Shown here: piece after piece, positions 16,033 to 29,413 of the stretch | Layout: every line of letters begins with the position of its first letter | Numbering within the stretch: the first letter of the stretch is position 1 | Assembly: GCA_036504215.1 (NCBI GenBank) | Contig: DASXVO010000024.1 | Span: forward strand, 1-39,984 | Length of the DNA: 39,984 bases | Direction: 5' to 3' | Origin: Vicinamibacterales bacterium | GTDB taxonomy: Bacteria; Acidobacteriota; Vicinamibacteria; Vicinamibacterales; Fen-181 | Notes under the pieces: generated by a model | What the model was told of the DNA's origin: nothing | What the model saw: only the letters and a program-made list of their open reading frames with translations | Database searches by the model: none | Made by a program: the position numbers and the translations under genes

Positions 16033-16215
16033 CTACCGCGGAGACGGCTCCAATATCCGCAGACCCGGGATGTCGGCGAAGTCCCTCGGATTGAGGGTCC
16101 AGAGTGCCGCCTCCTGGGCGCGCAATTCTTCGGCGTGGCGGGGGCCGCGCAGCCACTCGTAGAGGACGAGCGTCGACAACGACACGCGCTCGCCCCGTTC
16201 GATGACCGCGCGCAT
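16033..16215 (-). pseudogene. PIN-domain toxin (VapC-like) remnant
   Basis: The 60-codon frame joins two parts of a PIN-domain protein that are normally far apart. Residues 1-34 (RGERVSLSTLVLYEWLRGPR) match the second strand/helix of VapC proteins with the conserved glutamate. The rest (WTLNPRDFADIPGLRIL) matches the C-terminal strand, usually TRNxRDFxxIPGL. About 55 residues between them, which carry catalytic acidic residues, are missing, and the N-terminal Asp-containing strand is also absent upstream. It is therefore an internally deleted, inactive remnant. No antitoxin gene is seen next to it. Confidence 0.65.
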
Positions 16216-16258
16216 CGCCGATGCCGACCGCCCGCCGCATCGCCGTCCCCTCCTCGCA

Positions 16259-17641
16259 TCACATCCCGAACGACTTCAGCTTGCCGAGCAACTCCCCGAG
16301 ATCGAACCTGGTGCCCACGACGAACCGAAGGTCCGCGTCGCCCTTGAAGCCCCGCCTGACGTTCGCGTCGAAGCCCACCTGGAATGGCGCGTCCGGCAGC
16401 TTCAGTCGCCCCTCGACCGCCAGGCGCCACTCGGTGCCGAACGACTCCCACTTGCCGGCCGTCACATGGAGATAGCTGATGAGTTCCGGCGCGGTGTCCG
16501 GAGTCTGGTTGAGGCGGTAGTGGCCCAGGCCGACGCCGAACGACCAGAACTTGTAGACGCTGGTGTCGGTCGCCTTGCCTTGATCCTGGCCGACGATGGT
16601 GCTGATGCCGAACTTGGCGACGGGTGCGACAAACAGCGCGTTGCGCTGGTGATCGTGCGTCCACGCCCAGGCATCCGAGTAGAGCGGCGCGTAGATGCCG
16701 ACCTGGATCGTGGCGGCCTTGCGCGAATCCACGAAGCCGGCCGCTGTGGAAGAGGACGAGGTCGTCGCGCCGGTCTTTGCCGCCGTCGATGGGGGGGCCG
16801 CAGCCGTCGCCTGCGGCACGACCGGAACCGCCGTGAGCCGGGTGTCGAAGAACGTGTTCAACTGCCTGAACGACAACCTGCCGCTTGGTCCTCCCTCGCA
16901 CGCGTTTCCACCCTTGCGCCTCTCTCCGCCCTCGCATGGCTGTCCGCGGCTTGGGTTCTGCCCGGAGGCGCCGCGCTCCCGTCCCGATTTCTCGAGCGCG
17001 TACGGGTCCGCGGCCTGCCACCAATTCTTGTCCAGCGTGAACGACAGCACCAGATCCTGACGCGAGAAGTCCTCGGCATCGTTCGAGAAGACCACGCCTC
17101 CCGTGAAGTAGGCGTGCACGCGGCCCCAGTCGCCGGACGTGGCGACCGGATACTGGTAGGGCGTGCTGACGGGCGTGTCGCCGTCGAACACCTCGACCTC
17201 CACAACCTGGCCGGCCATCAGCGGCTGCGGGAACTGCGCCGCGAAGATCGCCGTGTCCTTGTCGACGTTCGCCACTACCCGCTGATAGAACACGGCCGTG
17301 GTGGTCGGATCGCTCTTCCGGTCCTGAGGAGGCCGCACGATCACCACCACGGTCCGCTTCTTCTGAGCGGCCTCCGGACTCGCGGGAGACTGCCCGGCTG
17401 TCTTGGCCGAATTGTCGGTTCTGGCCGCCTCCTTCGCCTCTGTCGGCTTCTTCAGGACCGGGCTCACGTGCCCGCTCACCGACCGCGCCCCCTCCCGCAG
17501 GGGAATCTGCAGCTCAACTACGGCAGACTTCGTGTCGTCGACCGTAGCACCTGCGCCCGACGAGGCTGCAACGCACAACACGAGGATCAAGATGACGCCG
17601 GATGCACGAGAACGTCGCCGACGACACGCAGCACATCTCAT
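16259..17641 (-). CDS. exported protein of unknown function
   Basis: A 460-residue protein with a signal peptide (RRRRSRASG then [17 protein letters not shown]). The ATG at 17641 has a strong AGGAGG site 4-9 bases upstream. No domain is recognised with certainty. The middle has a beta-rich part ([10 protein letters not shown]..., [13 protein letters not shown]) and the C-terminal part (from about residue 335) repeats alternating hydrophobic strands ([34 protein letters not shown]) like an outer-membrane barrel or barrel-associated domain. Between them lies a low-complexity, Gly/Arg-rich stretch with two CEGG motifs (about 16880-16985) that looks like an insertion, and an Ala/Thr/Ser linker. 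It is divergent from the [FeFe]-like sensor gene, whose only ATG overlaps its start codon. Confidence 0.7.
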
Positions 17642-20105
17642 GGAACCTCCTGGTCGCTCGACGTGGCCGCCTGCGGCCGGTGGACGGAGCGCACGCGCTG
17701 TCCGGGCGCACGCAGGCGCACCACGGGACAACGTCGCAAGGAGAGGATGCTCGGGCCGAGAATACTCCCCCAGCGGCCCGCCGGTTGCACACAAAGCGAC
17801 GAGCGTACGGCCAGCGATCGCGCCCGTCGCGTCCGGTCCCTTCGTTTCAAGTCCATCCATTCCACCAAACGGATCCACGCGGCTACAGTCTGGACGACGG
17901 CTCGATCACAACACCTGCATTGGCTGCGGTCAGTGCCTCGACAAGTGCACGCACCACGCCCGTCGAGCCCTGGATGATTCGGAGCGGTTCTTCTCCGATC
18001 TGGCCGCCGGTGTGCCGATGGTCGCAATCGTCGCGCCGGCTGTCGCAGCGGTGTTCCCCGGTGAATGGCTTCGGCTGAACGACTGGCTCCGTAAACTCGG
18101 GGTCGCCGCGGCATTCGACGTGAGTTTTGGCGCCGAACTCACCGTCAAGTCCTACCTGGAACACATCGCCGCCAATCGCCCGAAGGCCGTCATCGCGCAG
18201 CCGTGTCCGGCCCTGGTCACCTGGATCGAGCTGTTCAAGCCCGAGCTGATTCCGCATCTGGCGCCCGCCGACAGCCCGATGATCCACACCGCGAAGATGG
18301 TGCGGCGCTTCTATCCTCGGTACCAGGGCCACCGGATCGTCGTCCTCAGCCCGTGCGTCGCGAAGCGGCGCGAATTCGACGAGGTCGGCATCGGCGACTA
18401 CAACGTCACCTTCACCTCGGTGGTCGCGCGGCTGGAACGAGATGGCCGCCGCCTCACGGAGTTCCCGGAGACGGACTACGACAACCCGCCCGCCGAACGT
18501 GCGGTCCTCTTCTCGACGCCCGGCGGATTGCTCGAGACCGCAAAACGCTGGAACCCCGACGTGGGCACCATCGCCCGGAAGATCGAAGGTCCTCACAGCG
18601 TCTACCGATACCTCGAGCACCTCCCCGAGTCGCTTCGGGAAGGCGTGAACCCGTTGTTGATCGATTGCCTGAACTGCGAGTTGGGATGCAACGGCGGCCC
18701 CGGCACCCCGAACCGCACCGTTTCCCAGGACAAGGTGGAGGCGGCGGTTGCGAGCCGCGCGCGAACGATGCGCGACCGGTACGCGGCCGAATGCGGCGGG
18801 TCGTCACAGGAGGCCCAGCACGCCGCCGTTCTGGTGCAGATCGACAAGCACTGGGAACCCGGTCTCTACGGCCGCACCTACACGGATCGCAGTTCGAACG
18901 CCCGGTGGCGCCGGCCGAGCGAACAGGAAGTGCAGGCGATCTACCGCGCGCTCGAGAAGGTCGACGACCGGGACGTGCTCGACTGCGGCAGTTGTGGGTA
19001 CGGCAGTTGTCGCGAGATGGCAGTTGCCCTGCACAACGGCTTGAATCGCCCGGAGAACTGCCGGCTCCTCAAACAGCGACGCGCGGCGCGCGCGGTGGAA
19101 GATGGCGCGGCCGGCGTCAAGCGGCTCGGCGACCAGGCACAGGAGTTGAGCGTCGCCGTCCAACAGGTCGGTGGTGCCGTCTCGCGCATCGAGCACACGG
19201 CGCAGCAGGCCCTCACCGACGCCCACAAGGGCCACCAGGCGGCGGTGCGGGTGGCCGACGCGGTTCGTGTGCTCGCCGAGGCCGGCGGAGCGATCGCGGG
19301 CTTCTCGACGACGGTGCAGCGAATCGCGGCGCAGACGCGGCTGCTCGCGTTGAATGCGACGATTGAAGCCGCGCGCGCCGGCGAGGCCGGGAGGGGCTTC
19401 GCTGTCGTCGCGAGCGAGGTGAAGGAACTCGCGGGCGCGTCTGCAGGAGCGGCCACCGAGATCGCCCGGCGCGTCGAAGAGATCCAACTGGGTTCGACCG
19501 CGGCCGGACGGCTCGTCGACGAGTTGGCGTCGGCCACCAACAGCATCACGTCCTCGCAGAGCGCCATCGCGTCCGACGTGGCAGACCAGGCGCGCGTGCT
19601 CCGCGAGATGAACGACGATGTGGCTGCCCTGGCGCAGGAAGCCGACTGCCAGCCTTCCTTCCTCCAGCCGCCAACCGCCCGCCGGTCCGATGACGAACCG
19701 TTCCTGCGCCCCCTCTTGTCACAGACGCCCGCAAACACCGGCGAGTTGCGCCAACGGGCACCCGCGCGTAGGATCAGGCTGAACAAAGAGGAGAATGGGC
19801 ATGGCCACGATCCTGATGATCGACGACGACGCCGACCTCGTGGCGGCAGCGAAGATCGTGCTGGAGGCGAAGGGGCACGCCTTTCACGCGGCGCCGAATG
19901 GCGAGGTCGGCCTGCGGCGCGTGAAGGAGATCAGCCCGGACCTGATCATCCTCGACGTGATGATGGACCGCTATACGGAGGGCTTTCGCGTGTCCCAGTT
20001 GCTGCGCGATCCCGCGGAGACCTCCGAGTACGCCGCCTACCGACAGGTGCCGATCCTGGTGCTGACCTCGATCCACCGGACCACACCGTATCGCTTCGGT
20101 CCTGA
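17640..20105 (+). CDS. [FeFe]-hydrogenase-like sensor fused to a methyl-accepting chemotaxis domain
   Basis: Domains in order: one 4Fe-4S motif [11 protein letters not shown] (Cys93-Cys103, counted from ATG 17640); an H-cluster domain with Cys189 (AQPCPAL), Cys239 (SPCVAKR) and Cys346/Cys350 ([11 protein letters not shown]), all four ligand positions kept; a small Fe-S domain with CGSCGYGSC (Cys449-Cys457); and a chemotaxis-receptor signalling helix pair with [31 protein letters not shown]. The proton-relay cysteine of catalytic enzymes (first Cys of TSCCP) is replaced by proline, as in sensory members. There is no membrane segment, so it is cytoplasmic. The start is doubtful: no ATG, GTG, TTG or CTG lies in frame between 17640 and Cys93, residues 1-85 look non-coding, and the usual second ferredoxin cluster is missing. 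The frame also runs 300 bases into the next gene. Truncation or frameshifts are likely. Confidence 0.78.
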
Positions 20106-20211
20106 CGAGAAATCACTGCCGGTGGACGCGTTCCTCGAGAAGCCGACCCCCCCGGATCGGCTGCTGGCCACGATCGACGAGTTGCTGCGCAAGGTGCCGG
20201 CACGTCGGTAG
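19801..20211 (+). CDS. single-domain response regulator
   Basis: A 136-residue receiver domain with no output domain. IDDD at the N-terminus supplies the acidic pocket, Asp52 in IILDVMMD is the phosphorylation site, and the lysine is in DAFLEKP. The segment between them is longer than usual ([32 protein letters not shown]), as in receiver proteins found beside Hdr and hydrogenase genes in anaerobes (from memory). I prefer ATG 19801, seven bases after AGAGGAG, over ATG 19795, which is too close. It lies between the H-cluster/chemotaxis sensor and the kinase, so it could relay their signal by protein contact instead of by binding DNA. Confidence 0.88.
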
Positions 20212-20225
20212 GTCGAGGTGCGCGC

Positions 20226-20969
20226 ATGGCCACATCCACGCCGGCGATCCGGAGCCGCGACCGTGACGGCGCCGTTGGCGAAATGGCCCGGTTCATCCGC
20301 ATCGTGGCCCACGACCTCCGTGCGCCGGTGACGGTCACGAGGACGATGCTGTCGGTGCTGGCGCAGGGCTACGCCGGGCCGCTCGGCCCGCCCCAGGCCG
20401 ACCTGGTTGGCCGTGTCGAACGCCGCCTCGAGTTCCTGCAGACGCTGATTGACGATCTGCTCGATCTGGCGTCGGCCCAGGTCCGGCTGGAGGACGACGT
20501 CGAGCGTCGCTGCCGCGGCTCGGCCCTCGATGATCGCGTCAGCAGCGCCTGCGCTCGTATCGAGGCGGCGGCGCGCGAGACACGCACCGCGCTCCACTGC
20601 GGCACGTGTCCGGAGCCGGTCGTCGTCGCGGCCGAGCCCGACGAACTCGACCTCGTGCTGGACAACCTCCTGAGCAATGCCGTGAAGTACGCCCCCGGTG
20701 GTGAGGTGCGCGTGTCGGTGGCCCGGTCGGACGACGTCGGACGACTCGTCGTCGCCGACGACGGCATCGGCATCCCCGAGGGGGCGCATCCCAGGTTGTT
20801 CGAGGGATTCTTTCGCGCGGCCAACGCGAAGGCCATCGAGCCGCAGGGCACTGGCCTGGGCCTGGCCATCGTGAAGGCCGTCGTCGACCGTCGCGGCGGC
20901 ACGATCGACGTGGAGAGCACCGAAGGCGAGGGAACCACGGTCACCCTTCGGCTACCGCTCGGCGTGTAG
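20226..20969 (+). CDS. cytoplasmic sensor histidine kinase without sensor domain
   Basis: A 247-residue kinase core: dimerisation/phosphoacceptor helix with His29 in VAHDLRAPV, then the ATPase domain with NLLSNAVKYAP (N box), DDGIGIP (G1) and [10 protein letters not shown] (G2). There is no transmembrane segment and no PAS or GAF domain; only about 20 residues precede the helix. Its input must come from a partner, most simply the upstream H-cluster/chemotaxis protein or the receiver protein 14 bases before it. Its last 18 bases overlap tail-to-tail with the hydrogenase protease gene on the other strand. Confidence 0.88.
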   Translation: MATSTPAIRSRDRDGAVGEMARFIRIVAHDLRAPVTVTRTMLSVLAQGYAGPLGPPQADLVGRVERRLEFLQTLIDDLLDLASAQVRLEDDVERRCRGSALDDRVSSACARIEAAARETRTALHCGTCPEPVVVAAEPDELDLVLDNLLSNAVKYAPGGEVRVSVARSDDVGRLVVADDGIGIPEGAHPRLFEGFFRAANAKAIEPQGTGLGLAIVKAVVDRRGGTIDVESTEGEGTTVTLRLPLGV

Positions 20970-21419
20970 CCGGTCGTGGATCGTCCGCGCGAGGCGTGGG
21001 ACGGCGGCGGCGACGTCGGGGAACAGGCCTTCCTCGATTCGCAGCGTGTCGGCCGCCTGGATTCCGTAGATCTCGACGGTTTGCGGCATCGGCACGCCCG
21101 AGACGCGCGCAAACTCGAAGGCGTCAGCCAGCGTGATGTCGTGGGCGCCGACCAGCCGTGCCGCGCCGGGGACCCGCTCCATCGTCAGCTCACGGATCTC
21201 TCCTGGAACCCCTCCAGGCACGTCGAGGCAGTCCACGATCACGGCGTGATCCGCGCCGGCCAGCAGGTCGATCAGTTCGAAGCCTGCGCGCGTGCTGGTC
21301 AGGACGCGAACTCCCGGTACTGGATCATCGGTGAGCAGCCGCTCGACCTCCTCCGCCACGCGCAATCCAACGGCATCGTCGTAGCGCAGCGGGTTGCCCA
21401 GGCCGAGGACGATGGTCAT
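20952..21419 (-). CDS. [NiFe]-hydrogenase maturation endopeptidase (HyaD/HycI family)
   Basis: A 155-residue protease that removes the C-terminal peptide of the hydrogenase large subunit after nickel insertion. GLGNPLRYDDAVGLRVAEE is the family's N-terminal signature, with the acidic nickel-sensing residue in the DD pair; DCLD and GAHDITLAD follow. Length is typical. The ATG overlaps the stop of the qmoC-like gene (ATGA), which fixes the start. It is the last gene of the hydrogenase operon, and its substrate is most likely the large subunit encoded at 24290, which has a 26-residue tail after the last metal-binding motif. The general hypABCDEF maturation genes are not in the window. Confidence 0.9.
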   Translation of the reverse strand: MTIVLGLGNPLRYDDAVGLRVAEEVERLLTDDPVPGVRVLTSTRAGFELIDLLAGADHAVIVDCLDVPGGVPGEIRELTMERVPGAARLVGAHDITLADAFEFARVSGVPMPQTVEIYGIQAADTLRIEEGLFPDVAAAVPRLARTIHDRLHAER

Positions 21420-22603
21420 CGGGCAACCGCATGGGCGTGGCGCGTCACCGGCGCGGGGGCCGGCTGACTGGCCTGCGCGGTCTCGCGCACCGAGACGAGG
21501 TACTGGGCCACCGGCCGATACGCCAGGTGGTTCCACTTGCCGAAGGGGACCTCGACCACGAGCATGGGTACGGCGATCATCAGGTGTACGACGTAGAGGA
21601 TGTACGTCGGCCATGGCAGGTCGAGCAGCCGCACGGCGTGGAGCGCGATCCCCGAGAGTGCGGTCATGAACAGCAGGACGAGGAACATCCAGTCGGAGAA
21701 GTGGGAGAACCGATGATCTTGCTCATCCTTCTTCAGACGGCTGCGCATCGCCAGCAGCGTGACGCCGAGCAGGACCGCCGTGGCGTAGTAGCCGAAGATG
21801 GCGGTGTAGTGGAACTCCGCGCCCTCCCTCTGGAAGGCCGGCAGGAAGACGATGACCAGCAGGAACATCGTGGCGTAACCGGTGACGAGCAGGAAATGGC
21901 GGAGCCATCGACCGCGCGCGTCGTTGTCGCACTGGAGCCACCGCTTTTGCGTGGCGCCGTGGACGAGGATCTCGTAGGCCTTGCCGAGCCAGATCGACGC
22001 CGGTGTCTTCAGGCTGCCGTACCCCTTGCGGACGAAGAGCACCATGCGAAGCGCATTGATGCCGAGGAGCAGGCCGAGCAGGCCGGCAAGCGCCCAGTCG
22101 GCGTAGTGGACGACGCCGGTCGGCGCGAACAGGTCGAGGCGCACGTGTTCGAGCGCGCTGGTATTGATCGCCGAGAAGCCGAACGATGCGCCCAGCCAGC
22201 CGGGCACCAGGAAGAGAGCCAGGACGAAGAGCGCGACGACGGCCAGGAGACCGACCTCCCAGGCCTCCGAGAGGTAGAGCCGTTTCGACAGGCCCGTCCA
22301 ATCGTACTTGCTGACGAGCCATCGTCTCGTGGCCATCATCAGCTCGCCCGGCTCGGCGTCGCGCGGGCAGGTCGACGAGCAGGTGCCGCAGTAGTAGCAG
22401 AGCCACGGCTCGGGCGATTCGAGCAATCGGTCCGAGAGCCCGACCTGCAGGTAGCGGATGATCTTCCGGGGGAACACGGTATCCCCTTTCGAGAGCCCGC
22501 AGACGGCCGTGCAGTTGCCGCAACTGAAGCACCGGCCCAGCGTGTCGCCGCCGAACGCGGCCAGTTCGGAGGAGAGGGCCGGGTCCATTCGGTAGTGCTG
22601 CAT
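21416..22603 (-). CDS. qmoC: QmoC-like membrane subunit (HdrC fused to cytochrome b)
   Basis: A 395-residue protein, about QmoC length. Residues 1-100 are an HdrC-like domain with two 4Fe-4S motifs: CFSCGNCTAVC (Cys25-Cys35) and CYYCGTCSSTCP (Cys69-Cys79). The rest has about six transmembrane helices and resembles HdrE/NarI-type cytochrome b, with histidines at VVHYADW, RHFLL, HFSDW, HLMIAVP and KWNHLAYRP available for haem or quinone binding. QmoC exchanges electrons between cytoplasmic HdrA-like flavoproteins and menaquinone. The ATG at 22603 has AGGGAG upstream. It overlaps the protease gene by 4 bases and follows the winged-helix gene by 2. A conventional HdrC would lack the membrane part. 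Confidence 0.88.
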   Translation of the reverse strand: MQHYRMDPALSSELAAFGGDTLGRCFSCGNCTAVCGLSKGDTVFPRKIIRYLQVGLSDRLLESPEPWLCYYCGTCSSTCPRDAEPGELMMATRRWLVSKYDWTGLSKRLYLSEAWEVGLLAVVALFVLALFLVPGWLGASFGFSAINTSALEHVRLDLFAPTGVVHYADWALAGLLGLLLGINALRMVLFVRKGYGSLKTPASIWLGKAYEILVHGATQKRWLQCDNDARGRWLRHFLLVTGYATMFLLVIVFLPAFQREGAEFHYTAIFGYYATAVLLGVTLLAMRSRLKKDEQDHRFSHFSDWMFLVLLFMTALSGIALHAVRLLDLPWPTYILYVVHLMIAVPMLVVEVPFGKWNHLAYRPVAQYLVSVRETAQASQPAPAPVTRHAHAVAR

Positions 22604-22605
22604 GG

Positions 22606-22917
22606 TCAGGCTCCCTTCAGCGTGTAGAGCAGGTATCCGTTCTGCTCGGGGCCGTCGAGCACCTCGCCGTATCGTCGCATCGCCATCAGGTGCCACATCA
22701 CGATCGGCGCCGGCAGGTTGCATTCCTTGGTGAGCTGCGGCACGGTGCGAGGGCCGTTCCTCAGCGCCGCCCGCAAGGCCTTGTAGACCTTCTGCTGCTC
22801 GTTGAAGTACTCCTTGAGTTCCTTCGAGATGCCGCCCCTCCACTCGCGGAGGCTGTCGATTGGCCGTTTCGCCTTTGGCGCTGCGGCGGGCGTCGGGGTC
22901 GTCGTTTCGGGGCTCAT
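22606..22917 (-). CDS. small winged-helix protein inside the hydrogenase operon
   Basis: A 103-residue protein. After a Thr/Pro/Ala-rich tail, residues 40-100 form a likely winged helix-turn-helix: VYKALRAALRNGPRTVPQLT, ECNLPAPIVMWHLMAMRRYG and a beta wing EVLDG...GYLLYTLKG. The fold is of the ArsR/MarR type, so it may bind DNA and autoregulate the operon, or act as a small structural adaptor. No metal-binding cysteine pair of ArsR is present; the only cysteine is in ECNLPAP. GGAGG lies 7 bases before ATG 22917. It sits exactly between the qmoA-like and qmoC-like genes, so it is co-expressed with the complex. Confidence 0.75.
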   Translation of the reverse strand: MSPETTTPTPAAAPKAKRPIDSLREWRGGISKELKEYFNEQQKVYKALRAALRNGPRTVPQLTKECNLPAPIVMWHLMAMRRYGEVLDGPEQNGYLLYTLKGA

Positions 22918-22943
22918 CGTCGTTCCTCCGAGGGGGAGCTGTC

Positions 22944-24260
22944 TCACACCGCCACGGCGACCGGGCGCGACGAGCGCCACCGGTAGCGCTTGAGGTAGTT
23001 GGCGGCGGCCATAGCCGCCTCGCCGGCCTCGACGATCGCGTCGGGGATGTCCTTGGGACCCGCGGCGACACCGCACACGAACGCGCCCGGCATCGTCGTG
23101 AAGGAGGGATTGAGCTTGATCTCCGGCGTCTGGACGAAGCCGTCGGCGGCTTCCTCGATGTCGATGACGCCCGCGGCATGCCACGCCGGGATGAGCCCCT
23201 GGCTGAGCACGACCAGATCGTAGCGGTGCTCGTCCACGCGCCCACCCTCGTCGAGCAACTCGACACGCAGCAGCAGGTCGAAGTTCTCGACCTCGGTGAT
23301 GCGCGCCACCTTGCCCTTGACCACCTTGACGCCCTCGGTGACGGCGCGCCGGTAGAACTGCTCGTAGCCCTTGCCGAAGGCGCGGATGTCCATGTAGTAG
23401 AGCGCGACGTCGACGTCGTGGATGTAGTGGCGGAGCAGCAACGCCTGCTTGAGCGCGTACATACAGCAGACGCGCGAGCAGTACGGCACGCCGAGCGATC
23501 GGTCGCGGCTGCCCGCGCACTGAATGTAGGCGATCGACTTCGGGATCTTGCCGTCGGCCGGGCGCAGGACGCGCCCGTAGGGCCCGTTGCTCGACTGGAT
23601 CCGTTCCATCGCGAGCGGGCTCATGACATTGGGCAGCGTGCCGCCGTACTCCGGCTTGGCGCCCATGGACAGGATCTCGAGGCCGGTCGCGACGATCACC
23701 GTGCCGACGTCCACGGTGACCATGCGCGCCTCGGCGGTGAAATCGAGGCAGTTGGTCGGGCAGACCTTCTCGCACTTTCCGCAGAAGATGCAGTGTTCGA
23801 CGTCGAGCACCGCCTTCTGTGGAATGGCGTTGCCGTGCGGGATGTAGATGGCGCGGCGCGCGCCGAGGCCGTAGTCGAATTCGTGCGGCACCTCGATGGG
23901 GCACGCCAGCTCGCACTCGTCGCATCCGATGCAGGTCTCCTCGTGCAGGTAGCGCGGCTTGCACTCGAGCTCCGCGCGGAAGCCCGAACCCACCGGCTCG
24001 ACCTGGCGCACCTCGGTGTAGGTCTGCAGACGGATGCGCGGGTGGTGCGCCGATTCCGCCATGCGAGGCGTGCAGATGCAACTCGAGCAGTCGAGCGTGG
24101 GGAACACCTTGTTCAACCCCACCATGACGCCGCCAATCGACGGCGTCCGCTCCACGAGCAGCACCTCGAATCCCTGCTCGCCGAGGTCGAGCGCCGCCTG
24201 CATACCTGCGATGCCGCCGCCGATGACGAGCGCGTCGTACCGGTCCCGGATATCAGCCAT
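22944..24260 (-). CDS. qmoA: QmoA/HdrA-like flavoprotein
   Basis: A 438-residue FAD protein with the length and domain order of QmoA. ALVIGGGIAGMQAALDLGEQ near the N-terminus binds the FAD ADP part. LDCSSCICTPRM follows, then two 4Fe-4S motifs CIGCDECELACP and CIFCGKCEKVCP around residues 120-185. CAGSRD and CSRVCCMYALKQA occur in the second half, and the C-terminal GAFVCGVAAGPKDIPDAIVEA completes the FAD fold. It would pass electrons between the hydrogenase module and the membrane subunit. It is distinct from the larger HdrA-like protein at 27356; the two together resemble the QmoA/QmoB pair. The start has GGAG upstream, and the stop is 26 bases before the winged-helix gene. Confidence 0.87.
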   Translation of the reverse strand: MADIRDRYDALVIGGGIAGMQAALDLGEQGFEVLLVERTPSIGGVMVGLNKVFPTLDCSSCICTPRMAESAHHPRIRLQTYTEVRQVEPVGSGFRAELECKPRYLHEETCIGCDECELACPIEVPHEFDYGLGARRAIYIPHGNAIPQKAVLDVEHCIFCGKCEKVCPTNCLDFTAEARMVTVDVGTVIVATGLEILSMGAKPEYGGTLPNVMSPLAMERIQSSNGPYGRVLRPADGKIPKSIAYIQCAGSRDRSLGVPYCSRVCCMYALKQALLLRHYIHDVDVALYYMDIRAFGKGYEQFYRRAVTEGVKVVKGKVARITEVENFDLLLRVELLDEGGRVDEHRYDLVVLSQGLIPAWHAAGVIDIEEAADGFVQTPEIKLNPSFTTMPGAFVCGVAAGPKDIPDAIVEAGEAAMAAANYLKRYRWRSSRPVAVAV

Positions 24261-24289
24261 CGTCGTTGCTCCGCCCGGCAAGCCGGGTC

Positions 24290-25804
24290 TCACGCTCTTG
24301 TCGTGGTTGACAGCACCGTTCCGCCACAATCCCGCACGCGCACGACCATCGGCATCTGGCCCGGCAGGCTGTGCGTGGCGCAGCCGAAGCACGGGTCGTA
24401 GGCTCGAAACGACATCTCGATCATGTTCAGCACGCCCTCGGTGATGTCGCTGCCCTTGCGGATCAGTCCCTGCGCCGCCTTCTTGATCGACATGCAGATG
24501 GCCGCGTGGTTGTTGGTGGTGCCGACAACCAGGTTCGCCTTGCGGATGATGCCGTTCTCGTCGGTGACGTAGTGGTGGACGAGCGTGCCGCGCGGCGCCT
24601 CGACGATTCCGACTCCTTCGGTGGGCGTGTCGTGCGGGATCACGCGGTAGTTCTCGGGATGCGTCAGCTCCGGATGACGCACCAGTTCGAGCGCCCGCTC
24701 GGCCGCGTTGACCATTTCGACGACCCGCGCCCAGTGAATGGCCAGGGTGTGGTGCACCATCCGATGGCCGCTGCGGTCGCCGGTCAGCGTCTCGAAGTAC
24801 TCCTCGTACGCCTCCTGGGCCAGCGGCGTGCTCATCGCGTCGGCCACGTTGAGCCGCGCCTGCGGCGTGGCGCGGTAGACGCCCGACTGCTTGCCGTCCA
24901 CGAATCCCTTCCAGCCAACCTGCGTGAGGTAGGGGAACTTGAGGTAGCTCCAGGGCTCGACCCGCTCGGCGATGTACTTCGCGTAGTCGCGCGGCGCGTA
25001 CTTGCACAGCTCGTGGCCTTCCGGATCCACGACGCGCACCTTCCCGTCGTAGAAGTTCGTCCGGTTCTTGTCGTCCACGAGGCCCATCGAGTAGGTCTCG
25101 TGGTAGTAGGGGCCGTGGAGGATCAGATCCACGTACTCGGCGTTGGCGAGCACCAGGTCGTGCAGGACCTTGAGCGTGAACTTCGAGAACTCGAGCAGGT
25201 AGCGGGCGATTTCCTCGAGGCGATCCCGTTCCGACGCGGTGATCGGCTTGGAGACGCCGCCCGGAATGGCGTTCTCGGGGTTGACCGGCCGGCCGCCGAA
25301 AATTGCCGCCGCCTCGTGCCCCCACTTGCGCGCCTGGATGACCTGCTGGCCCACGCCGACGCCGAGTTTGCGGATGACGCCGATCAGGTTGCGCTCGGCC
25401 GGGTTGCTCGAGGGGCCCATCACGAAGTCGGGCGCCGCGAGGGCGTAGAAGTGCGTCGCGTGGTCGGTGACGTAGAAGATGTCGTACTGCAGCTCGCGGA
25501 TGAGGCGCGCCGTCAGCGGAAGCGAGATCTTGTACACGGCGTCGCACGCCTTGGCCGAGGCCATCAGGTGCGCCTCCGGACAGACGCCGCAGATCCGCGG
25601 CGTGATGCGGGGCATCTCCTCGACGGGTCGGCCCTCGCAGAACTTCTCGAAGCCGCGCAGTTCGGGCACCTGGAAGAAGCAGTCGGCGACCTCGCCGTCG
25701 GCGTCCAGGAAGATGTCGATCTTGCCGTGCCCCTCGAGCCGCGTGATCGGGTCGATGCTGATCCGCCGGGTCGGGCCGGCGGAGGTCGTTGCCGGGATGG
25801 TCAT
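24290..25804 (-). CDS. mvhA: [NiFe] hydrogenase large subunit, group 3 (MvhA-like)
   Basis: A 504-residue catalytic subunit that splits or makes H2. The nickel ligands are Cys72/Cys75 in RICGVCPEAH and Cys472/Cys475 in DPCFGCATH. After His478 there are 26 more residues, the tail that the maturation protease at 20952 would remove. IDPITRLEGHGKI near the N-terminus and the absence of an export signal on the small subunit place it in cytoplasmic group 3, near Mvh/F420-non-reducing types. GAGGAG lies before ATG 25804. Neighbouring mvhG and mvhD match the Mvh pattern, but the flavoproteins around them match Qmo. Group assignment within 3 is by context and recollection, not a tree. Confidence 0.93.
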   Translation of the reverse strand: MTIPATTSAGPTRRISIDPITRLEGHGKIDIFLDADGEVADCFFQVPELRGFEKFCEGRPVEEMPRITPRICGVCPEAHLMASAKACDAVYKISLPLTARLIRELQYDIFYVTDHATHFYALAAPDFVMGPSSNPAERNLIGVIRKLGVGVGQQVIQARKWGHEAAAIFGGRPVNPENAIPGGVSKPITASERDRLEEIARYLLEFSKFTLKVLHDLVLANAEYVDLILHGPYYHETYSMGLVDDKNRTNFYDGKVRVVDPEGHELCKYAPRDYAKYIAERVEPWSYLKFPYLTQVGWKGFVDGKQSGVYRATPQARLNVADAMSTPLAQEAYEEYFETLTGDRSGHRMVHHTLAIHWARVVEMVNAAERALELVRHPELTHPENYRVIPHDTPTEGVGIVEAPRGTLVHHYVTDENGIIRKANLVVGTTNNHAAICMSIKKAAQGLIRKGSDITEGVLNMIEMSFRAYDPCFGCATHSLPGQMPMVVRVRDCGGTVLSTTTRA

Positions 25805-25833
25805 CGTTCGCTCCTCGTGCCGCATGGTCCGTG

Positions 25834-26826
25834 CTACCGGCGCGCCTTGAGGGCGCTCGACGCCAGGCTGAACCGGTAGAAGGTGCCGGTCGGGTCGACG
25901 ATCTCGTCCACGACTTCGCGCGCGCGGTCCTCGGTGACCGCGTCGATGACCGATCCGAGGGCGCTCAGCATCGCCGTGCCCTGGTCGGACGACAGGCCGG
26001 CGCTGCCGTAGCACCCGCGGCAGGTCATCTCGGCCTTCGGGCACTGTGCGCCGCAACCGCTGCGCGTCGAGGCGCCGAGACAGACGAACCCCTGCTCGAG
26101 CAGGCACCAGTTGGGTTCCGGAACGGCCATGTGCGGCCGCTTGAACGCCTTGATGCGGGTCTTGCGCTTCTCGCGCGGGCACTCATCGCACACCGAGCGG
26201 TTGTCGCAGCCGACGCGCACGGCGCTGTTCCGCGCCGGCACCTCGCCCGCGACGACCGCCTGCAGGACCTTCCACACCTGCGCCCCCACCGGAGGGCATC
26301 CGGGGATCTGGTAGTCCACGTCGACGATGTCGCCCAGGCGGAGGACCTGCGGGTACATCCCGGGCAGGTCGAGCTCGCCCAGCGGCGTGGCCCACTGCGT
26401 CTTGGGTTCGACGTGGCCGGGATTGTGGAGTGTCGGGTTGCTGTGGTAGACCGCGTCGTAGATCTCGCGCGGGCTCTTCAGGTTGGCGAGCGCCGGGATG
26501 CCGCCATCCATGGCGCAGGCGCCATAGGCGACCAGCGTCCGGCTCTTGCGCCGGAGCAGGCGCGCCAGTCGCTCGTGCTCGGAACTCCGGATGCCACCAT
26601 TGAAGAGGCAGACGTCGATGTACCCGTCCGGGTAGTCTGCCACCGTGCGGTACTTGAAGTCGGCCGCGCACGGCCAGAACACGATGTCGGCCACCTCGAT
26701 CAATTCCAGAAGGTGCTCGCCAATCTCGAGCAGCGAGATGTCGCAGCCGCCGCAGCTCGACGCCCAGTGCATGCCGACCCGCAGTTTGCCGGGTTGGCGG
26801 TCGATCTCGGCACCATTCGTGGTCAT
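25834..26826 (-). CDS. mvhG: [NiFe] hydrogenase small subunit (MvhG-like)
   Basis: A 330-residue iron-sulfur subunit that carries electrons from the nickel site. The proximal cluster ligands are Cys25 and Cys28 (SSCGGCD), then YGACAMDGG and IPGCPPVG. Further cysteine groups in CDNRSVCDECP and CGAQCPKAEMTCRGCYG provide two more clusters. No signal peptide or twin-arginine motif is present, so the enzyme is cytoplasmic. The start ATG overlaps the mvhD stop (ATGA), so the two are translationally coupled. It lies 29 bases before mvhA, with which it forms the catalytic dimer. Confidence 0.92.
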   Translation of the reverse strand: MTTNGAEIDRQPGKLRVGMHWASSCGGCDISLLEIGEHLLELIEVADIVFWPCAADFKYRTVADYPDGYIDVCLFNGGIRSSEHERLARLLRRKSRTLVAYGACAMDGGIPALANLKSPREIYDAVYHSNPTLHNPGHVEPKTQWATPLGELDLPGMYPQVLRLGDIVDVDYQIPGCPPVGAQVWKVLQAVVAGEVPARNSAVRVGCDNRSVCDECPREKRKTRIKAFKRPHMAVPEPNWCLLEQGFVCLGASTRSGCGAQCPKAEMTCRGCYGSAGLSSDQGTAMLSALGSVIDAVTEDRAREVVDEIVDPTGTFYRFSLASSALKARR

Positions 26827-27338
26827 GCCCGGTCTCCCCACGGCTGAAGGTCCTGGCCGTGCCCGACGCCGCGCTCGTACATCCGCCGGGGCCAGTCGAG
26901 CGGGCCGACCTGACAGACCTGCTCGGTCACCTGACGCACGAGCTTCGCGAACTTGTCACCCTCGGCCGCGCTCACCCACTCGTGGACGAACCGTTCGGGC
27001 TCGATGCCGAAGTCCTGGAGGACGCGCGACACCAGCGGCATCCGTGCCATCGTCTTGTGGTTGCCGGCGATGTAGTGGCAATCGCCGATGTGGCAGCCGC
27101 ACACCATGACGCCGTCGGCGCCCCGGGCGAACGCCGTCATGATCAGATCGGGATCGATCCGGCCCGAGCACATCACCCGGATGATGTCCACGTTGGCCGG
27201 GTACTTGAGGCGCGCCGTGCCGGCGTTGTCGGCGCCGGTGTACGAGCACCAGTAGCAGAGAAATGCGATGATGCGAGGCTCCCACGCCTGGGACGTCCCG
27301 GTCTCGGCGGGGGGCTGCACCGACTCTCCCTGACTCAT
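26823..27338 (-). CDS. mvhD: MvhD-type iron-sulfur adaptor
   Basis: A 171-residue protein of the MvhD/FlpD family, which connects the hydrogenase to HdrA. The conserved cysteines are in FLCYWCSYTGADNAGTARLKYP, VMCSGRI and VCGCHIGDCHYIAGN. In methanogens MvhD holds a [2Fe-2S] cluster and passes electrons from the hydrogenase to the HdrA flavin. In QmoB the same domain is fused to the HdrA-like part; here it is a separate gene directly after the large HdrA. GGGAGA precedes ATG 27338. The C-terminal 50 residues (after FVHEW) are helical and typical of the family. Confidence 0.93.
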   Translation of the reverse strand: MSQGESVQPPAETGTSQAWEPRIIAFLCYWCSYTGADNAGTARLKYPANVDIIRVMCSGRIDPDLIMTAFARGADGVMVCGCHIGDCHYIAGNHKTMARMPLVSRVLQDFGIEPERFVHEWVSAAEGDKFAKLVRQVTEQVCQVGPLDWPRRMYERGVGHGQDLQPWGDRA

Positions 27339-27355
27339 GAGCGGCTCTCCCTTCG

Positions 27356-29413
27356 TCAGACCTCCGCGCAGACCGGGGCCTGGTCGCGCGCGACAGCGGG
27401 CCCGAGGAGCACCTCGAGCTCGGATCGCACTTGCTGATCGTTGAAGCCGGCCTGCTGGATCGCGGTGCTCGGGCAGGTGGCGGCGCACGTGCCGCAGCCG
27501 GTGCAGAGCGCCTCGCTCACCGTCGCGAGGCCGCGCGCCTCGTCGCGCGTGATCGCATCGTAGGGGCAGACGGTCAGGCACGTCTGGCAGCCGGTGCACG
27601 CGTCCTCGTCCACGCAGGCGATGAACGGGTCCATCTCCACCTGACCCTGGGCGATCATGGCGGCCGCCTTCGACGCGGCTGCGGACGCCGCGGCGCACGC
27701 CTCGGTGATGTCCATCGGTCCCTGGCAGCAGCCGGCGAGGAAGACGCCCGACACCGCCAGTTCGACCGGCCGCAGCTTCGGATGCACCTCCAGCAGGAAG
27801 CTGTCGTAGCCCACGGCGCACGAGTACATCGTCACGAGCTCGCTGATGTCGTGCGGCACGACGCCGGTGGCGAGCACAAGAAGATCGAGCGGCACCTCAA
27901 TCGGGAGACCGTCGGTCAGCAGGTCCTTGGTCCGGACGACCAGCGGCCACGCGCCCCCACGGTCCTTGTCCACGCGCGGTGGGTGCATCGGGCTGTACCG
28001 CACGAAGAGCACGCCCAGCTCGGATGCCCGTTCGTAGTACTCCTCGTGTCCGCGGCCGTAGGTCCGCATGTCCTGGTAGAACGACGTGATGTGGGATTCG
28101 GGGAAGCGCTCCTTGAGCGCAACGGCCGCGTGCATCGCCGCCGTGCAGCACGTGCGGGCGCAGTAGTCCTTCACCTTTCCGTCGGGCTGGGGCGCATTCA
28201 CGCCCTCGATCTGTCGGGCGCCCACGCAGTGGAGGAAGCCGATCCGCACCGGCTTGTGGCTGTCGAACGGCAGCGCGCCGGCCGTCGGTCCCTCCGGGTC
28301 GAGCATCCGGTGGAGCTGCTGGAGCGTGATGACCTTGGGGAAGATGCCGTAGCCGTACTCGCCAAACAGCGGCTCGTACGGGTCGTAGCCGGTCGCGAGG
28401 ATGATGACGCCCGAGTGAAGGGTCACCTCTCGCGGCTTCGCGTCGAGGTTGATGCCCTTGCCGCCCACTGCCGCCACGCACTTGCCGCACTTGGTGCAGG
28501 TATGCCAGTCGATCGCCGGGATCGGCGGGAAGCAGCCCGGGTACGGCATGTAGATCGCCTTGCGGCGGCTCAGGGCGAAGTCGAATTCGCTGATCGTCTC
28601 CTCCGGGCAGGCGGCAATCGCGTTGCCCGGGTACGTGAGACGCTCGTCCACGCCGCGCGCGTCGATCTTGATCTTCGTCTTGAAGTCGCCGACGACGCCT
28701 TCCGAATCCACGACGTGGGCGCCGGTGAGCACGGTGATGAGCGGATGCCTCACCACGTCGTGGACCAGGTCGCAGAGCAGCGGCCTGGCCTCCTCGCCGG
28801 TCGGGAAGATGTTCCACAACTGCGCCATGCGACCACCGAGGAACGGACGCTTCTCGATGAGGGTGACCTTCATGCCGCGTTCGGCGAGATCGCGTGCCGC
28901 CATCAGGCCGGCGACCCCGCCGCCGATGACGAGGGCGGCCGGGTGGATTGGGATGCGCCGCTTGTCGAGTGGAACCAGAAGGCGCACACGACTCACCGCC
29001 GCCCGGACGAGGCGCGAGGCCTTGGCGGTGGCTGCCTCCTTGTCCTCGATCACCCACGAGACGTGCTCGCGGATGTTCACGTGCTCGAACAGGTACTGGT
29101 TCAGGCCCGCCCGCTCGACCGCCCGGCGGAAGGTGATCTGATGGAGCGTGGGCGAGCAGGCCGCGACGACGACACGCGTCAGACCGTGCTCCCGGATCTT
29201 CTGCTCGATCAGCGCCTGCCCGGGATCCGAGCAGTTGAACATGTGCGTCGTCGCCAGGACGACGTCCGGCATCCGCGCGGCCTCCTCGGCCACGCGCCTG
29301 ACGTCCACGACGTCCGAGATGTTGCCGCCGCAGTGGCACACGAACACCCCGACGCGCGGGGCCTGGACCGCCGGCGTCGATTCGCTCGCGGCCGAATCGG
29401 TCGCGTCGAACAT
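27356..29413 (-). CDS. hdrA: HdrA-like flavin and iron-sulfur protein (QmoB-like)
   Basis: A 685-residue protein and first gene of the operon. The N-terminal domain opens VGVFVCHCGGNISDVVDV and includes FNCSDPGQ and VVVAACSPTLH, as in HdrA. AALVIGGGVAGLMAARDLAE begins the FAD domain at about residue 160. CTKCGKC (near 305) follows, then CVGAR and ARTCCTAAMHA. Two C-terminal 4Fe-4S motifs, CTGCQTCLTVCP and CTGCGTCAATCP, are followed by an NDQQVRSELEVLL end typical of HdrA. HdrA's flavin can split electron pairs between high- and low-potential acceptors. With MvhD encoded next it equals the parts of QmoB. The CTKCGKC motif has no fourth cysteine in the usual place (CVAAVGG). The start is supported by GAGGAGA. 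Confidence 0.92.
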   Translation of the reverse strand: MFDATDSAASESTPAVQAPRVGVFVCHCGGNISDVVDVRRVAEEAARMPDVVLATTHMFNCSDPGQALIEQKIREHGLTRVVVAACSPTLHQITFRRAVERAGLNQYLFEHVNIREHVSWVIEDKEAATAKASRLVRAAVSRVRLLVPLDKRRIPIHPAALVIGGGVAGLMAARDLAERGMKVTLIEKRPFLGGRMAQLWNIFPTGEEARPLLCDLVHDVVRHPLITVLTGAHVVDSEGVVGDFKTKIKIDARGVDERLTYPGNAIAACPEETISEFDFALSRRKAIYMPYPGCFPPIPAIDWHTCTKCGKCVAAVGGKGINLDAKPREVTLHSGVIILATGYDPYEPLFGEYGYGIFPKVITLQQLHRMLDPEGPTAGALPFDSHKPVRIGFLHCVGARQIEGVNAPQPDGKVKDYCARTCCTAAMHAAVALKERFPESHITSFYQDMRTYGRGHEEYYERASELGVLFVRYSPMHPPRVDKDRGGAWPLVVRTKDLLTDGLPIEVPLDLLVLATGVVPHDISELVTMYSCAVGYDSFLLEVHPKLRPVELAVSGVFLAGCCQGPMDITEACAAASAAASKAAAMIAQGQVEMDPFIACVDEDACTGCQTCLTVCPYDAITRDEARGLATVSEALCTGCGTCAATCPSTAIQQAGFNDQQVRSELEVLLGPAVARDQAPVCAEV

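Follow-up and report, generated by a model that had tools for sequence, protein, structure and literature searches.

The 39,984-base stretch of DNA analysed here (the window) carries a gene in which an [FeFe]-hydrogenase-like H-domain is fused to a methyl-accepting chemotaxis (MCP) signalling domain. This gene is a further member of a kind already catalogued, namely group C2 of HydDB (2016), where the class is described as "Chemotactic (putative)" (PMC5037454). With somewhat better than even confidence, we favour the reading that it encodes a horizontally acquired cytoplasmic receptor for H2 (or redox state) serving CheA/CheW arrays, H2 being the presumed ligand and CheA the presumed partner. 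Should this role hold true, one soluble protein could let bacteria direct their movement to or from H2, which is the chief currency of syntrophy. In its assembled form, the window copy has lost the first [4Fe-4S] motif and is without a clear start or stop; it may therefore have been damaged recently, unless the contig contains an error at about 17.9 kb. Because of its doubtful 5' end, this copy is a poor choice for functional work, and the interest lies in the C2 class as a whole rather than in the window locus.

Domain architecture of the fusion protein

One open frame holds matches to Fe_hyd_lg_C (PF02906, 91 bits), PF04060 (29 bits) and MCPsignal (83 bits). As shown in Table 1, a ferredoxin-type motif is followed by the H-domain, the PF04060 FeS domain and the MCP signalling domain. 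No NCBIfam model scored above its own cut-off for the fusion protein, and there was no Rfam match.

The L1 (QPCPA), L2 (SPCVAK) and L3 (12 residues) motifs of the H-domain were all found. A sequence-only reading had assigned the H-cluster ligands to Cys189, Cys239, Cys346 and Cys350, counted from the ATG at 17640. These residues correspond to the codons at 18204 (L1), 18354 (L2), 18675 and 18687 (both L3) and are invariant in 68/68 aligned relatives; L3 has an extra cysteine at 18666. The same reading had noted a proline at the proton-relay position (299 in CpI numbering), which is likewise shared by the window protein and all 68 relatives. It had overlooked the C-terminal [4Fe-4S] motif Cx2Cx4Cx16C, a unifying feature of the group C and D sensory hydrogenases (PMC8163306; PMC13104023).

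The chemotaxis-receptor coiled coil without membrane helices, also proposed from the sequence, was borne out by the MCPsignal match, and no transmembrane segment was found in the C-terminal half of the fusion protein. In the AlphaFold model (mean pLDDT 87.5, pTM 0.67), the FeS domain continues directly into helices 389-493 and 495-583, which form an antiparallel hairpin with the conserved tip, and the top PDB fold matches were [FeFe]-hydrogenases. The Asn of the QTN sequence at the tip is replaced by Arg in the window protein. We also checked the possibility that the MCP part is a frameshift artefact. It was ruled out by continuous in-frame homology to intact fusions, and the same fusion occurs in 59 of the 68 relatives, as judged by a match to MCPsignal.

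Table 1. Features of the fusion gene and its surroundings (positions in the window).
Feature	Position	Strand	Remarks
Divergent gene, putative secreted protein	16259..17641	-	Start abuts the doubtful 5' end of the fusion
Open frame 5' of the homology	17640..17897	+	Unsupported as coding; no codon periodicity
Fusion gene, supported coding part	17898..19649	+	584 aa; tblastn homology, GC3 periodicity, AF2 model
Ferredoxin-type motif CxxCxxCxxxC	17916..17948	+	Equivalent to the second of the relatives' two N-terminal motifs
H-domain (PF02906)	18018..18701	+	L1, L2 and L3 motifs with four H-cluster Cys
C-terminal [4Fe-4S] motif Cx2Cx4Cx16C (PF04060)	18984..19061	+	CGSCGYGSC-x16-C
MCP signalling domain	19194..19619	+	MCPsignal; hairpin tip QTRLLALNA at 19332
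3' run-on of the frame	19650..20105	+	Unsupported as coding; overlaps the response-regulator gene in a different frame
Single-domain response regulator	19795..20211	+	PF00072; same-genus homologues without fusion gene
Histidine kinase, HisKA+HATPase	20226..20969	+	Without recognised sensor domain
Convergent gene group	20952..27821	-	Hydrogenase protease, HdrA/HdrC-like, Mvh-type [NiFe] large subunit, small subunit, MvhD/FlpD

Family, distribution and origin

A scan of reference genomes yielded at least 523 relatives, and 68 full-length relatives (from L066-L145) were aligned. The best 80 of the relatives came from Spirochaetes, Bacteroidetes, Planctomycetes, Acidobacteriota, Fibrobacterota, Thermodesulfobacteriota and Bacillota, and group C2 is widespread in anaerobes of the first four of these phyla and of others. 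The cultured Desulfoluna limicola (L083) is one of the carriers. The assignment to C2 follows the HydDB definitions: the H-domain with the H-cluster cysteines is present and linked to a methyl-accepting chemotaxis domain, and the window protein lacks the HisKA/HATPase output that defines group C1. No experimental characterisation of group C2 function was found in the literature searched, and C2 sequences were discarded in the hydrogenase validation checks of one study (PMC9431212).

In the phylogenetic tree, the MCP-fused clade was set apart from the kinase-linked sensors by a long branch (4.46) with full SH-aLRT support. Within this clade the window copy nested with two Holophagaceae-type sequences of the same phylum, including L066 (SH-aLRT 99). 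Among 193 searched genomes of its own class, its own included, the gene was absent from all others; the other matches in the class were more distant paralogues with at most 37% identity. This absence from the rest of the class points to horizontal acquisition from another lineage. In relatives the two flanks of the fusion gene lie on separate contigs, which precluded the reading of a clean empty site there. The convergent gene group downstream is kept in same-genus genomes without the fusion. The intergenic stretch at 16037-16232 has 78-85% similarity to places in two other genomes (G500 and G503) and is possibly a dispersed repeat.

Several relatives depart from the common layout. L085, L093, L096, L131 and L139 are without the MCP tip motif and much longer (875-1261 aa), and PAS or HATPase domains were matched in a few members of the family, which suggests an exchange of output domains within the clade. 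The near-identical relatives L081 and L084 are also without the tip motif, and no CheA was found in their genomes.

Extent and integrity of the window copy

The limits proposed earlier for the gene, 17640-20105, proved too wide. In tblastn searches with intact relatives (L066/L068) as queries, the window showed 56% identity to intact fusions in a single frame throughout 17901-19637, and the matches were essentially confined to 17901-19649. The codon-position GC periodicity set in at about 17900-17940 and faded past about 19740.

Both ends of the gene are doubtful, which the sequence-only reading had missed, along with the lack of the first ferredoxin motif. On the 5' side, no homology to relatives was detected by tblastn in 17640-17897. 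After the ATG at 17640, which coincides with the beginning of the divergent gene, no further ATG, GTG or TTG follows up to 17898. Two N-terminal [4Fe-4S] motifs are a feature of groups C and D, and both are present in 68/68 aligned relatives; the first of them was not found in the window in any frame. A search for the missing 5' piece elsewhere in the assembly gave only ordinary ferredoxin-like matches, and there is no same-genus orthologue by which the 5' end could be settled. On the 3' side, the window frame has no stop codon at the end point of the relatives, and the other two frames have stops at about 19692 and 19781.

Between these ends the gene is intact. No internal stop or frameshift occurs across 584 codons, and downstream of 17898 the window copy keeps each of the 96 alignment columns for which conservation among the relatives reaches 95% or more. 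The core therefore appears to have been fully constrained until recently, with the truncation being either a recent event or an assembly fault. It is possible, though less likely than not, that the window copy is a decaying, non-functional transferred gene, truncated at insertion. The loss of the first motif, the start codon and the expected stop would fit such decay, as would the absence of the gene from the other genomes of its class that were searched and its position between flanks that lie on different contigs in relatives; the uninterrupted frame, the complete set of conserved columns and a GC periodicity by codon position that is usual for coding DNA speak against it. Just as likely is an intact real gene, with the irregularities at its 5' and 3' ends introduced by faulty assembly of the binned metagenome contig. 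The contig (C24, one of 90) is exactly the window, conservation is complete downstream of 17898, and a one-base shift near 19650-19740 would lead to one of the two stops in the other frames, ahead of the response-regulator gene. Against an assembly fault, the N-terminal piece was not recovered from the rest of the assembly, and both the divergent gene and the response-regulator gene read normally.

Cofactor pocket and maturases

The residues of the cofactor pocket were compared between the window protein and the 68 relatives. In addition to the ligand cysteines, the equivalents of Lys358 and Glu361 are invariant throughout. The equivalent of M497 is Leu in 68/68 relatives and that of M353 is Ser in 66/68, while, in alignment with the genome's own HydA, the equivalent of E279 is Tyr in 68/68 and that of S319 is Ala in 67/68. 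The group A proton-path positions that were checked are replaced in C2. All 68 aligned proteins have an extra invariant cysteine (DCLNC), located three residues ahead of the equivalent of C499. Pro299, this extra L3 cysteine, S353 and L497 are the residues singled out by the constraints on C2. Most of the proton path of group A is also missing from the group D protein TamHydS, which nevertheless assembles an H-cluster and turns H2 over slowly. A sensor role would therefore fit the C2 pattern, without being proved by it.

Absence of hydEFG from the genome had been named beforehand as a possible refutation of the H2 sensor. All three genes are present on contig C39, with HydF at 544 bits (cut-off 326), HydG at 527 bits (cut-off 312) and HydE at 304.5 bits (cut-off 254.6), and missing maturases are ruled out. 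The genome also encodes two catalytic HydA proteins with the small-subunit domain and one HisKA/HATPase-linked sensory hydrogenase. The region C39:66000-105800 (L009, L010) forms an [FeFe]-hydrogenase island with the two HydA genes, HydE, HydF, HydG and a Rex-like regulator; the HisKA-linked sensory hydrogenase lies in the same island, adjoining an RR-HisKA-HATPase protein. The L3 motif of this kinase-linked sensor (L010:3351-5393, minus strand) is FCRGCTMGPG, with CxxC spacing in place of the usual CxxxC, and this spacing is common to L146-L149.

HydF was over the cut-off in 41 of the 48 genomes carrying relatives (two of which, G340 and G396, are apparently the same genome). The seven genomes without it each encode several Fe_hyd proteins, some high-scoring, and the missing maturases may therefore reflect incomplete bins.

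Hydrogenase relatives of the IOP1/Nar1 type carry cubane and accessory clusters only. A similar state in C2, with sensing of O2 or redox state in place of H2, seems unlikely to us. The very long branch leading to the clade, the invariant proline and extra cysteine, the replaced proton path and the seven HydF-less genomes could be read in this way. However, the four ligands and the Lys358/Glu361 equivalents are invariant in C2, S353 and L497 are those of TamHydS, an H-cluster binder, and HydF occurs in 41 of 48 carrier genomes, whereas only 88 of 396 sampled host-phylum genomes have any match to the fusion protein. A differently built cofactor site, marked by Pro299, the replaced proton path and the extra L3 cysteine and passing redox or other-gas sensing into chemotaxis, in place of an H2 sensor of the familiar hydrogenase type, is in our view quite improbable.

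Signalling partners and proposed mechanism

CheA is encoded by three genes of the genome, and CheW domains lie at C22, C36 and C54. Of the ten MCP domains in the genome, nine belong to proteins other than the fusion. CheA was also found in 45 of the 47 relatives' genomes tested. The proposal of a soluble sensor acting through CheA/CheW thus stood as far as the domains, the lack of a detected membrane segment, the maturases and the presence of CheA and CheW are concerned, while H2 remains the presumed ligand. In six other receptors of the genome 151 to 205 residues follow the tip motif, compared with about 105 homologous residues here. With such longer arms in the receptors examined, the fusion receptor may not sit in the same array as these.

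The alternative route through the neighbouring kinase, also raised by the sequence-only reading, fared less well. The histidine kinase and response-regulator genes adjoin the fusion gene on the same strand, and no sensor domain was recognised in the kinase itself, which would suit a receptor that signals through this pair and not through a Che array. But the pair adjoins unrelated genes in the same-genus genome G499, where the fusion is absent, and G500 and G502 also have the pair and no fusion. Moreover, gene neighbours vary near the closest homologues; no conserved ones were found around those that were read, and a conserved neighbourhood was dropped as a clue to the partner. We give signalling through the adjacent pair only a slight chance.

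For intact members of the class, we favour the chemotaxis route, as follows. Two N-terminal [4Fe-4S] clusters would be followed by an H-cluster held in a pocket without the group A proton path, and the C-terminal [4Fe-4S] domain would join directly to the cytoplasmic MCP hairpin. The diiron site would be loaded by HydEFG. Binding of H2, or its slow turnover, may trap a reduced state of the H-cluster, and the resulting conformational or redox change would pass via the C-terminal cluster domain to the coiled coil. The coiled coil would then alter the autophosphorylation of CheA within a cluster of cytoplasmic receptors, by which movement or another Che output would be biased by H2.

Comparison with known systems

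The closest known system is HydDB group C2 itself (PMC5037454), with which the window protein shares the H-domain, the methyl-accepting chemotaxis domain, its soluble nature and the proposed sensing of H2. The window copy differs in being without the first N-terminal [4Fe-4S] motif and in its doubtful start and stop. In TamHydS, the removal of one N-terminal cluster cysteine destabilises the protein (PMC13104023).

Placement relative to groups C and D follows published residue comparisons rather than a tree with TmHydS and TamHydS. TamHydS (group D/M2e; PMC8163306, PMC11803613, PMC13104023) shares with C2 the Cx2Cx4Cx16C motif, M353S, M497L and the absence of the relay cysteine. Position 299 is Ala in TamHydS, which is without a signalling domain, whereas C2 has Pro there together with the extra L3 cysteine and the MCP hairpin. 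TmHydS (group C/M2f; PMC8163306) shares a putative sensor role, the C-terminal cluster and the lack of C299, but it differs from C2 in its PAS domain and in M353G/M497S (PMC8163306). In the S353/L497 pair, C2 is therefore like the group D protein and unlike the group C one (PMC11803613, PMC8163306).

Finally, the group C1-type sensor of the same genome (C39:89248-91296) shares the layout of two ferredoxin-type motifs, H-domain and FeS domain, with 34% identity over the shared part. It differs in its HisKA+HATPase output and in its pocket motifs, which read TTCPS, GPCIAK and FCRGC.
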